From assembly GCA_025210295.1 (NCBI GenBank), contig JAOASC010000040.1:1-64000 (forward strand): a DNA stretch of 64,000 nucleotides. The letters run 5' to 3'. The stretch is from Flavobacteriales bacterium. GTDB taxonomy: Bacteria; Bacteroidota; Bacteroidia; Flavobacteriales_D; Parvicellaceae. The notes beneath the pieces were generated by a model. The model saw only the letters and a program-made list of their open reading frames with translations, searched no databases and was not told the origin of the DNA. A program made the position numbers and the translations under genes. Positions 53,680 to 57,334 of the stretch are shown one piece after another; positions within the stretch are counted from its first letter, which is position 1; every line of letters begins with the position of its first letter.

Positions 53680-53713
53680 AAAAAGCCTATTAGCAAAACT
53701 AATAGGCTTTTAA
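53680..53713. terminator. Terminator after the zinc-type regulon genes
   Basis: AAAAGCCTATTAG and CTAATAGGCTTTT form a perfect 13-bp stem around CAAAA. On the minus strand it closes the TonB receptor-lipoprotein unit. Confidence 0.85.
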
Positions 53714-53729
53714 CAAATTATTATTTTTT

Positions 53730-53954
53730 TTAGTGCTCATGACAGTGTACATCGTATTTGTTACCATCAGCGTCAGTATAACCATTTGCTTCTAGGTCTT
53801 CTAACTCGTCACCACATTTCTCTCCTAATTCAACTTCAGTTTCTGCTCCGTTTACCATTTTTTCGTAATGACACTCATGGCATTCTTTCTTTTTACAAGC
53901 GTTTAAACTTAATAAGAATACAGATGCTCCGATAATTAATGTTAACTTTTTCAT
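53730..53954 (-). CDS. Small Cys/His-rich lipoprotein
   Basis: This 74-residue protein has a lipoprotein signal with lipobox LNAC (Cys20), followed immediately by KKKECHECHYEKMVNG, a CxxCH-type metal-binding arrangement, and it ends YDVHCHEH. It is the last gene behind the TonB-dependent receptor (12 bp gap) and next to a Fur-family regulator. The simplest reading is a periplasmic metal-binding lipoprotein, probably for zinc, but no family was recognised. Confidence 0.75.
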   Translation of the reverse strand: MKKLTLIIGASVFLLSLNACKKKECHECHYEKMVNGAETEVELGEKCGDELEDLEANGYTDADGNKYDVHCHEH

Positions 53955-53966
53955 TGTTTTTGGTTT

Positions 53967-56174
53967 TTATTTTATATTTATTTTTAAGCCGATATATATA
54001 TTTCTACCGGGATTATTAATGCCTAGATATTTTAATTGGGATAGGTGATTAATATATGCTTCATTGAAAAGGTTTCTAACTCCAAAGTTTAGTTGAGATT
54101 GCCATTTAAAATTAAGATCAAGATGAACACCTATATGAACTAAATGATAGTCGATAGAAGCACTTTCGTTAAGTCCTATATTGTTTTGTGGTAAGAAATA
54201 TTGATGTTGTAAACTAATGTTATTCAATGCGATCTTACCTTCTCTTTTTCCTTCATATTTAATTAAGGAATTAAGTTTAGGTTGCGGAATTAAAGGGAGG
54301 AATGCATCCTCACTTAATCTTCCTTCAGTATATGAGAAATTGGTTTCAAAGTGAATTTGATGAGCAAAATGTGGGTGATAGTGTACTCCCAGTTCTCCAC
54401 CAAATAAAGTTGCTTTATTAGCCTGTTGGTATTCATAAACATTTTTGTTGTCTATCATACTGTCTAATGGCGAAATATAGATGTAGTTATTGATAAGGCT
54501 AAAATATGGGTTGATAATAATCGAAAGGTGCTCTTTGCTCAACTCCCAACTTAAATCAACTTGGTTGGCTTGTTCAGATTGTAAGTTGGTATTACCAAGT
54601 TCATATCGAAGTGCTGCATGATGAACTCCATTTGAGTATAGCTCAGAAGTATTAGGAGCTCTATAGCCACTCGATAAGTTGAGGCGGTAGACATTGCTTT
54701 TGTTTTCATAAGCAAAACCAGTAGAATAATTGATGCTATTAAATTGTTTTTGTGTACCGTTTTCTGTTCCTTTGAAATCGTTGTTTAGTTGTAGGTGTTT
54801 AAAATCATATCTTATACCTGCTTGAAATTCGAGCTTTTTAATAGAACGATTATATAAAGCAAATAATCCATTTTCAAATGAGGTTGCATCAGGAATAATT
54901 TGTTCACTAGCCCTTTCATTACTATTATCTTGTAGCATACCTTGAACACCTATGACGATTCCTGATTTTTCAGCAGGGATACTATATTGGATGTTATAAT
55001 TGGTGGTATTAAGTAATAGGTTAATTGCTGGAAAAGTTACTTTTTCATCATATTCTTGAAGATGATTAATTACATGACCTACTTTCATGCTTAAGGTATT
55101 TTTATTGAAGTAAAATTTATTATCCAATAACAAATAGTGGTTATTAATAACTTGTGCAGGAATAGTTGTAGCTCTGCTTTGTGATGTCGATAAAAAGTCT
55201 TTTAATGTTGCATTAGCACTATGTGTATGACCTGGTATTCCCACTCTACCGCTTAGGTAGTTATATTTTAAATTAAGATTATAATTTTTCTTTTGATAAC
55301 CAATAGCGGTTTTAAAATTATAATTACTAAATCTAGCATTTTTCACAAACTCACCCGATGGGATTTGATAATCAGCTTGAGAACTTTGACTACCAAAAAT
55401 ATTAACGCGTAAATTTTTAAGAGAAAATTTTGTCCCAACCTCAGAGTTAATCCCTAAATTATTCGATTCAAATGAACTTTTTATATAGCTTTCAGGTTTA
55501 ATGCTATAATCTTGATCAGTAAAATAAATAATTCCGCCTAATGCATCAGAACCATACAATAAAGAAGCAGGGCCTTTAATGATTTCAACTCCTTTTATTC
55601 CAATATTTGTAATTCCTGTTCCGTGATCAGCTCCCCATTGTTGGTTTTCAATACGTAACCCATTTAATAAAGTAACAATTCTACTTCCAGAAAGTCCTCT
55701 AATGGTTGGTTTACTAATACCAGCTCCATTCCCAGTAGTCTCCACTCCTGGAATATTACTAATTTGTTCAACAATGTCAGAAGAAGGAATATAACTGAGT
55801 TGTTCCATTTTTCTGGCTTCTACATTGATAATATGCTGACGCTGTAATTGACTGTTGGGTACAGATACAATGACTTCTTCTAAATGGTAATGTAAGGCCT
55901 CAAGTTCAACTTTTGTAGTGTTTTTTGTTAGTGTAATTATTTCACTTTTGTAGCCTAAGGCTTTTACTTCGACTTCTTGAGGTAAAGTAATTGTAGAATC
56001 AATGGATACATCCCCATTTTCGTTAGCATACAAGGTCAGGCTCAGGTCTAGCATATAGATTGATGAGGAGGAGATCCCTGATTGAGATTCTTTGTCTACA
56101 ATTGTACATACAGTAGTTTGTCCAAAAATTAGAAAGCTGCTGAATAAAGTAATTATAAAGGTAAATAATTTCAT
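53967..56174 (-). CDS. TonB-dependent receptor, probably for zinc
   Basis: This 735-residue outer-membrane receptor has a signal peptide (ends FGQ), a carboxypeptidase-regulatory-like N-terminal domain (about 25-95), a plug domain (SDIVEQISNIPGVETTGNGA, PTIRGLSGSRIVTLLNGLRI, IKGPASLLYGSDALGG) and a 22-strand barrel whose last strand ends YIGLKINIK. An external loop segment GIPGHTHSANATLKDF recalls the His-containing region of zinc receptors such as ZnuD. The ATG at 56174 is used because it starts the signal peptide MKLFTFIITLF. It is divergent from a Fur-family gene; the shared intergenic region has GTTGCA operator-like boxes. Substrate is inferred. Confidence 0.85.
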   Translation of the reverse strand: MKLFTFIITLFSSFLIFGQTTVCTIVDKESQSGISSSSIYMLDLSLTLYANENGDVSIDSTITLPQEVEVKALGYKSEIITLTKNTTKVELEALHYHLEEVIVSVPNSQLQRQHIINVEARKMEQLSYIPSSDIVEQISNIPGVETTGNGAGISKPTIRGLSGSRIVTLLNGLRIENQQWGADHGTGITNIGIKGVEIIKGPASLLYGSDALGGIIYFTDQDYSIKPESYIKSSFESNNLGINSEVGTKFSLKNLRVNIFGSQSSQADYQIPSGEFVKNARFSNYNFKTAIGYQKKNYNLNLKYNYLSGRVGIPGHTHSANATLKDFLSTSQSRATTIPAQVINNHYLLLDNKFYFNKNTLSMKVGHVINHLQEYDEKVTFPAINLLLNTTNYNIQYSIPAEKSGIVIGVQGMLQDNSNERASEQIIPDATSFENGLFALYNRSIKKLEFQAGIRYDFKHLQLNNDFKGTENGTQKQFNSINYSTGFAYENKSNVYRLNLSSGYRAPNTSELYSNGVHHAALRYELGNTNLQSEQANQVDLSWELSKEHLSIIINPYFSLINNYIYISPLDSMIDNKNVYEYQQANKATLFGGELGVHYHPHFAHQIHFETNFSYTEGRLSEDAFLPLIPQPKLNSLIKYEGKREGKIALNNISLQHQYFLPQNNIGLNESASIDYHLVHIGVHLDLNFKWQSQLNFGVRNLFNEAYINHLSQLKYLGINNPGRNIYIGLKINIK

Positions 56175-56200
56175 TAAAAATGAGTTATCTTTGAAACTTC

Positions 56201-56238
56201 GTTGCAAATATACGTAATTAAAATGCAACCTTGTTGCA
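56201..56238. promoter_or_regulatory. GTTGCA operator cluster of the Fur-type regulator
   Basis: GTTGCA (56201-56206), TGCAAC (56224-56229) and GTTGCA (56233-56238) form two inverted pairs, including TGCAAC-CTT-GTTGCA. On the minus strand TATATTTG (56205-56212), the receptor's -7 box, overlaps the first hexamer, so binding would block the promoter. The Fur-family protein is the obvious candidate binder. Confidence 0.55.
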
Positions 56239-56242
56239 AGTT

Positions 56243-56656
56243 ATGGTAAAAAATTTATTAAAGTCAAAAAAGATAAGGGAAACAGCCTTTCGTTTAAAGG
56301 TCTTAGAAATTCTTCTAGTAGAGAAGAAGCCTTTGACAGTAGAAGAAATTGAGAAGCAATTAGGAAAGTTTGATCGAATAACACTTTACAGAACAATTAA
56401 AACTTTTGAGGATAAGGGAGTTATCCACGAAATAGTGATTGCTGGTGAACCCAAACGAATTGCTTTATGTGCTTCTTCTTGTAAAGATGGGGAACACCAT
56501 CACCATTTAGAACATATTCATTTTTTTTGTGAGACTTGTAAAGAAACTTACTGTATTGATCATGTTGAAATTCCAGAAATTAATATACCTAATTACGTTA
56601 TTAATTCATTTGACTTCCAAATGAAAGGAATGTGTGAGAAGTGTCTAAATAAGTAG
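56243..56656 (+). CDS. Fur-family metalloregulator (Zur-like)
   Basis: This 137-residue repressor has an N-terminal winged helix (RLKVLEILLVEKKPLTVEEI ... DRITLYRTIKTFEDKGVIHE) and a dimerisation domain with the metal-site cluster CASSCKDGEHHHHLEHIHF and structural-zinc cysteines CETCKETYC and CEKC. The sequence alone does not separate Zur from Fur or PerR; the neighbouring ZnuD-like receptor and Cys/His lipoprotein favour zinc. The ATG at 56243 is preferred; two in-frame TTG codons at 56231 lie inside the operator. Confidence 0.85.
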   Translation: MVKNLLKSKKIRETAFRLKVLEILLVEKKPLTVEEIEKQLGKFDRITLYRTIKTFEDKGVIHEIVIAGEPKRIALCASSCKDGEHHHHLEHIHFFCETCKETYCIDHVEIPEINIPNYVINSFDFQMKGMCEKCLNK

Positions 56657-56695: not shown

Positions 56696-57334
56696 ATGAC
56701 ACTAAGAATATTCCCTTTCTTTTTTCTATTAATTCTTTCCTTAAAGAGTTGGTCTCAGGTAATTAATGAGGAGATCAGACCTGCTGTCAATAGAGGGACA
56801 GAAGAATTTTTAAAGGATTATTTATCGATTAAATACCCTGGAAGAAAATTTACGGATTTTATTTATGTGGGTGTTAAACGGCAAGAATTGTATTTATTTA
56901 GAGGAGGAGAGCTCTTGAAAGTATACCCAGTATCTACTTCAAAACATGGTGCAGGTTCAGTCGAAGGTAGTGAAATGACTCCAGTGGGGTTACATAAAGT
57001 GCATGGTAAATTTGGAGAGGATATTCCTGAAAATGGCATTCTAAAACACAAACGTTTTACTGGTGAGTTGGCAGAAATAGAGTATAGGCCAATGCCCATC
57101 AATAAAGATATTATCACCACAAGAGTTATTACTATAGAGGGATTAGAAAGAGGAGTGAATAAAGGAGGTAAGTTAGATTCCTACGATCGACACATCTATA
57201 TCCATGGTACAGCAGAAGAAGGGTTGATAGGGCAACCAGCTTCACATGGATGTGTTAGATTAAAGAATAAAGATGTAATGGATTTATTTGATTTGCTCTC
57301 CAAAGGTATGTATGTAATCATTCTGAATAATTGA
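56696..57334 (+). CDS. L,D-transpeptidase (YkuD domain)
   Basis: This 212-residue exported protein has a signal peptide (residues 1-20, SLKSWSQ). Its YkuD catalytic domain has the motif HIYIHGTAEEGLIGQPASHG followed by CVRL, in which the two His, Ser, Gly and the nucleophile Cys are all present. L,D-transpeptidases cross-link peptidoglycan 3-3 or attach lipoproteins to it. The middle HGAGSVEGSEMTPVGLHKVH region fits the fold. It starts 40 bp after the Fur-family gene. Confidence 0.9.
   Translation: MTLRIFPFFFLLILSLKSWSQVINEEIRPAVNRGTEEFLKDYLSIKYPGRKFTDFIYVGVKRQELYLFRGGELLKVYPVSTSKHGAGSVEGSEMTPVGLHKVHGKFGEDIPENGILKHKRFTGELAEIEYRPMPINKDIITTRVITIEGLERGVNKGGKLDSYDRHIYIHGTAEEGLIGQPASHGCVRLKNKDVMDLFDLLSKGMYVIILNN

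Follow-up and report, generated by a model that had tools for sequence, protein, structure and literature searches.

We identified a palindromic DNA element, TGCAAC-N3-GTTGCA, upstream of genes of the zinc-starvation type in its own genome, across its family and at a set of hand-picked targets. The boxes are very probably the operators of an autoregulated Fur-superfamily repressor of Zur type that responds to zinc and is encoded at 56243-56656 of the window (the whole 64-kb stretch of DNA that was analysed). Binding, the zinc signal and repression are what we infer; the observed basis for a Zur-type reading is the presence and position of the sites and the conservation of both sites and ligands. 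A preliminary description of this DNA had proposed an autoregulated zinc-uptake regulon with an uncommon box sequence, and the analysis supports that reading as a predicted regulon, with sites at zinc-type genes and a box that combines ordinary Fur-family geometry with an unfamiliar sequence.

The divergent locus and its boxes

In the window, the receptor ATG (56174, minus strand) and the regulator ATG (56243, plus strand) are divergent and 68 bp apart. Sequence inspection and a pattern search placed two boxes between them, neither assigned to a strand. Box A (ATGCAACCTTGTTGCAA, 56223-56239) has the exact core TGCAACCTTGTTGCA at 56224-56238, the perfect palindrome TGCAAC-CTT-GTTGCA, and its core ends 4 bp upstream of the regulator ATG. 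Box B (TTGAAACTTCGTTGCAA, 56191-56207; core TGAAACTTCGTTGCA, 56192-56206) carries one mismatch, and its centre is 32 bp from that of box A. The candidate receptor -7 element, TATATTTG (56206-56213, minus strand), overlaps one end of box B and lies downstream of box A, starting 19 bp from the box A centre. It is faced by the regulator -7 element, TATCTTTG (56186-56193, plus strand), which overlaps box B at its opposite end. The three hexamers reported in the preliminary description are present (GTTGCA at 56201-56206, TGCAAC at 56224-56229 and GTTGCA at 56233-56238), and the two placements given there, one hexamer overlapping the receptor -7 element and one 4 bp before the regulator ATG, correspond to box B and box A, respectively. 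Its inverted pairs held in part: the pair at 56224-56238 is exact, but the partner of the GTTGCA at 56201 is TGAAAC (56192-56197), which is mismatched once and falls outside the interval described.

The receptor gene (53967-56174, minus strand) encodes a 735-aa ZnuD-like TonB-dependent receptor, named from Pfam and NCBIfam searches, a PDB match and alignment. It is followed after 12 bp by a gene for a probable lipoprotein of 74 aa (53730-53954, minus strand), which carries a CHECH motif and, at the protein end, a CHEH motif, agrees with the CxxCH lipoprotein noted earlier and matches no Pfam family. A strong terminator-like stem comes next (53681-53711, minus strand; 14-bp stem and T tail, from a terminator scan), the probable terminator of the receptor-lipoprotein operon. 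On the other side, the gene at 56243-56656 (plus strand) encodes a Zur-like Fur-family regulator of 137 aa, named from Pfam and alignment. Downstream of it lies an L,D-transpeptidase-domain gene (56696-57334) preceded by its own TATATTTG; such a gene adjoins the regulator in one relative (G031) too, and it is probably unrelated to zinc.

The paired arrangement was found repeatedly. In 18 divergent gaps we counted 35 boxes with at most 3 mismatches in 14 positions, against 0.44 expected over all 18 from a first-order Markov control, and 17 gaps hold two boxes, with centres 29-32 or 38-40 bp apart. Because 14 of the 18 gaps had been found through one exact site, only the second box counts as independent there; the four gaps located through the regulator and not through a site (G003, G004, G027 and G031) all contain two boxes at up to 3 mismatches. 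The -7 consensus is TAnnTTTG. The receptor-proximal box overlaps such an element at its receptor-sense end in 13 of the 18 gaps and a regulator-directed one at the opposite end in 15. In 11 gaps, that of the window included, both ends are overlapped, so that two promoters face each other across one operator.

At other, hand-picked targets, a TAnnTTTG element lies between -15 and +28 bp relative to the box centre in 25 of 29 cases, where 2.4 are expected by chance, and all 25 fall at -13, at +15 to +18 or at +25 to +26. In the +25 register the GTTGCA of the box itself provides a TTG located 19 bp upstream of the -7 element; in the -13 register the box overlaps the -7 element itself. Since every register puts the box over core promoter elements, we infer repression by blocking of RNA polymerase. 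A sigma-70 promoter scan was set aside as unfit for Bacteroidetes promoters.

Distribution of the probable operator

In the source genome (4.2 Mb, 95% complete) the exact pattern TGCAACN3GTTGCA occurs three times and its reversed control not at all. One copy is box A; the second lies 38 bp upstream of a MerC-FolE operon (contig C15) and the third 60 bp upstream of a ZigA-like COG0523 GTPase gene (contig C48). The preliminary description had named absence of the motif upstream of other metal genes as a result that would refute the regulon; the genome-wide search went the other way, returning these two further sites. Looser patterns were at the level of the control, with 6 one-mismatch copies against 5 genome-wide and 15 against 17 for the 14-base form at up to 2 mismatches; only the exact copies therefore stand out unaided, and box B, as a single-mismatch copy, rests on its conserved pairing. 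Chance is ruled out as the origin of the exact sites by the reversed-pattern control, in the genome itself and in the family, and stays as a reading for single-mismatch sites genome-wide.

Among 39 genomes of the family, 24 contain exact sites, 38 in total, and the reversed control gave none in all 39. By reading the loci we assigned 34 of the 38 to zinc-type genes. Twenty-one belong to the receptor/lipoprotein/regulator locus or, where the contig ends, to a receptor of the same type, and five to MerC, with FolE alongside in three; four are at COG0523-type operons (one of which, L083, shows only the two companion genes), two at a second type of receptor, which has a different lipoprotein, and two at carbonic anhydrase or HELLH-motif (SprT-like) genes. 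Two sites have no obvious zinc link, being at a weak DsrE match and at an FAD oxidoreductase gene, and the last two fall inside genes. The central three bases are ANT in 29 of the 38 sites, which makes the usual box a 7-1-7 palindrome, TGCAACA-N-TGTTGCA; box A of the window, with CTT, is among the nine exceptions and departs from this form at one base.

A regulator of the window type was found in 30 of the 39 genomes, with an exact site at its locus in 19. In G022, the exact site precedes a receptor of the second type some 3 kb ahead of the regulator. The regulator upstream DNA was readable in six of the remaining ten (G003, G004, G011, G014, G027 and G031) and is cut by contig ends in the other four (G001, G010, G020 and G024). 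Five of the six have boxes with at most 3 mismatches in 14 at the expected place; at the same threshold G014 has none, and the regulator relative there adjoins a different receptor. A site with at most 3 of 14 mismatches precedes MerC in 11 of 11 places in the family (that in G006 stands at the head of a COG0523 operon), a loose test for which, by our estimate from the Markov rate, chance alone would give one or two sites in as much sequence. All three COG0523 genes of the close type in the family lie inside an operon with an exact site. Fifteen of the 39 genomes have a completeness of 90% or more together with a contamination of 5% or less; the remaining 24 fall short of this mark, which weakens statements of absence.

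The order-wide scan found an exact site in 44 of 150 genomes. Outside the family, 125 genomes contain 38 exact sites against 16 control sites, so the exact pattern is only enriched there and a good part of the matches is chance; in three of the 15 order-wide loci that were read (L111, L116 and L123) the site is well inside a gene. The same divergent regulator and receptor occur in other families of the order, with two boxes in L109, L110 and L113 and one in L114.

Regulator, receptor and further candidate targets

The regulator passes the Pfam FUR model PF01475 with a weak score (33.2 bits against a gathering threshold of 23.1); three Fur-family genes, this one included, were found in the source genome. 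NCBIfam models gave mostly PerR, Irr and Fur types and no Zur, all far below cut-off. The Cys4 set C96, C99, C131 and C134 is present in all 31 aligned sequences (the window and 30 others), in which H62, C76, C80, H91, H93 and C104 are invariant as well. The cysteines outside the Cys4 set, C76, C80 and C104, suggest a thiol-containing sensor site, and a site of this kind is described for Zur in PMC6103462. An AlphaFold model of the regulator (pLDDT 77.7, pTM 0.67) was compared with known structures by VIA-align. The best match was DNA-bound E. coli Zur (4mtd; Z 14.5, rmsd 2.3, 129 residues aligned), followed by Xanthomonas Zur (13.9), the DNA-binding domain of E. coli Fur (12.6) and full-length Vibrio Fur (12.4); Streptomyces Zur (11.9) ranked below full-length Fur. 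This preference for Zur may partly reflect the closed conformation, and Foldseek E-values ranked Vibrio Fur and PerR above Zur. The sequence and modelled fold appear to fit Zur, a fit that does not prove the metal.

Two other types of Fur-family regulator were encountered. A second clade (the source-genome gene at C48 320177-320563, corresponding to L106 3660-4070; L048-L066; L167) lies beside metal-efflux genes, such as a P-type ATPase identified by Pfam in L048 and an RND pump that resembles CzcA by eye in L106. The relatives at L048-L066, from named or MAG records, were rejected as orthologs, as they are separate from the window-type regulators in the tree. A box within 2 of 14 mismatches is missing from 18 of the 19 loci; that in L066 is about 4 kb from the gene. 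Directly after the second-clade stop codon, 10 of the 19 loci carry TTGCACTTCCATTGCAC or a close variant, and the source genome carries TTGCAACTCACTTGCAT; TTGCACTTCCATTGCAC looks like a related operator for the efflux genes. Most second-clade copies are almost the same in sequence and may owe their spread to transfer. The third type, of about 126 aa (L115, L118, L119 and L182-L187), has boxes such as ATGCAACTGAGTTGCAA and TTGCAACACAGTCGCAT and is divergent from MerC-FolE in L115/L182 and from a gene that is MerC-like by eye in L186 and L187. A search of 120 genomes gave a match in 44, with related clades counted in. Among 30 of the matching loci, a box with at most 2 mismatches lies near the gene start in 10 (0.2 expected) and is lacking in the other 20, so only some members use a related box.

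The best PDB match of the receptor is ZnuD of Neisseria meningitidis (1.4e-16), followed by the copper channel OprC (3.7e-13). Receptor residues H184, H316, H318 and H518 align with H114, H255, H257 and H513 of the ZnuD chain (plug, loop 3 and barrel), and a 14-residue offset, inferred from the loop sequence quoted in PMC4557270, converts these to H100, H241, H243 and H499, which lie in crystallographic metal sites according to that paper. The likeness to ZnuD thus covers a D-H in the plug, an HxH loop and a barrel histidine, matched with H100, H241/H243 and H499. The four aligned histidines are kept in 82-95% of 22 sequences, the window included, and five more (598-608) are conserved in 86-91% of the aligned sequences. 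Unlike ZnuD, the window receptor has a shorter loop after HTH and a linked lipoprotein, and the receptors in L096 and L097 have no HTH loop. The receptor reached 122.8 bits of the 950 required by the NCBIfam ZnuD model NF038289, for which reason it is labelled ZnuD-like and not ZnuD, and a heme-receptor model in NCBIfam scored higher (139 bits). The earlier reading of a ZnuD-like receptor with an HTH loop was borne out by the top PDB match and the aligned zinc ligands, while the strict NCBIfam cut-off was missed. The second TonB receptor type, accompanied by a longer lipoprotein (KKDD...LITTL or similar), stands under a box in L091 and L092 and adjoins Fur-family regulators in L161 and L197; it is probably another metal receptor.

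The COG0523 protein of the source genome matches the ZigA model NF038288 over nearly its full length with 555.4 bits. In this it resembles the ZigA-type GTPases, from which it differs by falling below the curated cut-off of 600 bits, and the box overlaps the -7 element of its gene. FolE, encoded in the MerC operon, belongs to a zinc enzyme family that is not an obvious zinc-sparing one, a point against the zinc reading. A one-mismatch box stands just before an FAD-oxidoreductase-like gene (C16:188098-188112; L107 4098-4114), of thioredoxin-reductase type by eye, which may be a further target. In L204 a comparable gene adjoins both a box and a regulator of the third type; in L205 one adjoins such a regulator, and the site there is weaker. 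Boxes were also seen upstream of an alpha-carbonic anhydrase gene (L100, 3026-3042) and of small HELLH-motif proteins in L100 and L103 (2122-2138), the latter with no Pfam family where tested (L103). A search of the 39 family genomes found no ZnuA, with the control search positive in 11 of 14 well-known genomes. All 39 contain ZIP proteins, which may give zinc a way across the inner membrane besides MerC, and naming MerC as a candidate inner-membrane zinc importer is a guess.

Proposed switch, alternatives and meaning

In a zinc-replete cell, zinc-loaded regulator dimers would occupy the two palindromes of the divergent gap. Because box B is fused with both divergent -7 elements (TATATTTGCAACGAAGTTTCAAAGATA, receptor sense), one dimer could block both promoters, and the block that the regulator would impose on its own promoter at box B would constitute autoregulation. 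Box A lies in the -33/spacer region of the receptor promoter. The zinc-bound regulator would also silence MerC-FolE and the GTPase. Under zinc starvation the dimers would leave, the ZnuD-like receptor and the small lipoprotein would be made, and the MerC-FolE operon (C15) and the ZigA-like COG0523 GTPase gene (C48) would be opened too; the FAD-dependent oxidoreductase gene (C16, one mismatch) would possibly be derepressed as well.

The same regulator and boxes might instead respond to iron, manganese, nickel or cobalt and form a Fur, Mur or Nur system. Such a response would agree with the Fur-superfamily fold, with the first places of Fur and PerR by Foldseek E-value and with the heme-receptor model outscoring the ZnuD model on the receptor. 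The targets nevertheless include COG0523/ZigA-like genes, MerC-FolE, a receptor that matches ZnuD best in the PDB and, in one relative, carbonic anhydrase, and the invariant C76, C80 and C104 beyond the Cys4 set suggest a thiol-containing sensor, as in Zur; we consider another metal improbable. The box could also be read by the paralogous Fur-family protein of contig C48 (320177-320563) in place of the window regulator, to which it is 36% identical, and a one-mismatch copy of the box follows the stop codon of the paralog's own gene. This protein belongs, however, to a separate clade whose other members lie beside metal-efflux genes with sites of a different centre, whereas of the 30 family genomes in which a window-type regulator was found, 19 carry the exact box at its locus, which makes a role of the paralog very improbable.

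That the palindrome acts as RNA, as a terminator or hairpin, and not as a protein operator would account for the flagging of box A by the terminator scan, with a T-rich tail on the minus strand. The fixed register of the box to the -7 element at many promoters, the occurrence of boxes as pairs and the -13 register, which overlaps the -7 element itself, all argue against an RNA, to which we give almost no credence.

The preferred Zur-type repressor can be set beside known Zur regulons (E. coli, B. subtilis, Streptomyces and Caulobacter) through the literature (PMC6103462, PMC8000910, PMC2770081, PMC4557270 and PMC9976891). Shared features are a Fur-superfamily regulator with a Cys4 site and a palindromic operator, which is 7-1-7 in some Zurs. 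Zur promoters in which two boxes cover the two promoter elements are also described (PMC6103462), as are COG0523 genes among Zur targets (PMC2770081), and TonB receptors are Zur targets in Caulobacter, by the title of the paper. The differences are the operator sequence, here TGCAACANTGTTGCA on TAnnTTTG-type promoters, the position of the regulator gene divergent from, or in an operon with, the receptor gene, and the targets, with MerC among them and no ZnuA found in the 39 genomes. The Cys4 site and the target genes agree with Zur, and the system would work like a Zur regulon; the operator sequence is the new part. Among the matches listed in the literature search, which covered titles and abstract openings, there was no Bacteroidetes Zur box, and a word search of two Zur reviews and the COG0523 survey (PMC2770081) returned neither Bacteroidetes nor Flavobacterium.

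A wider reading joins these parts, and we put it forward only tentatively, as rather unlikely in its entirety. A Bacteroidota order, probably Flavobacteriales to judge by named relatives of the regulator and by the promoter type, would have its own Zur branch and its own operator, TGCAACANTGTTGCA, and in many members one operator fused to two facing -7 elements would shut the promoters of both receptor and repressor. ZnuABC would be replaced by the ZnuD-like receptor, the CHECH lipoprotein as a zinc carrier on the periplasm side, and MerC, which to date is known for transporting mercury, as the inner-membrane zinc importer. The analysis points to parts that, to our knowledge, have been assigned no zinc role, namely the CHECH lipoprotein and MerC in genomes in which no ZnuA was found. 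With an operator recognisable from its sequence, genes of zinc starvation would become predictable in a major environmental group.
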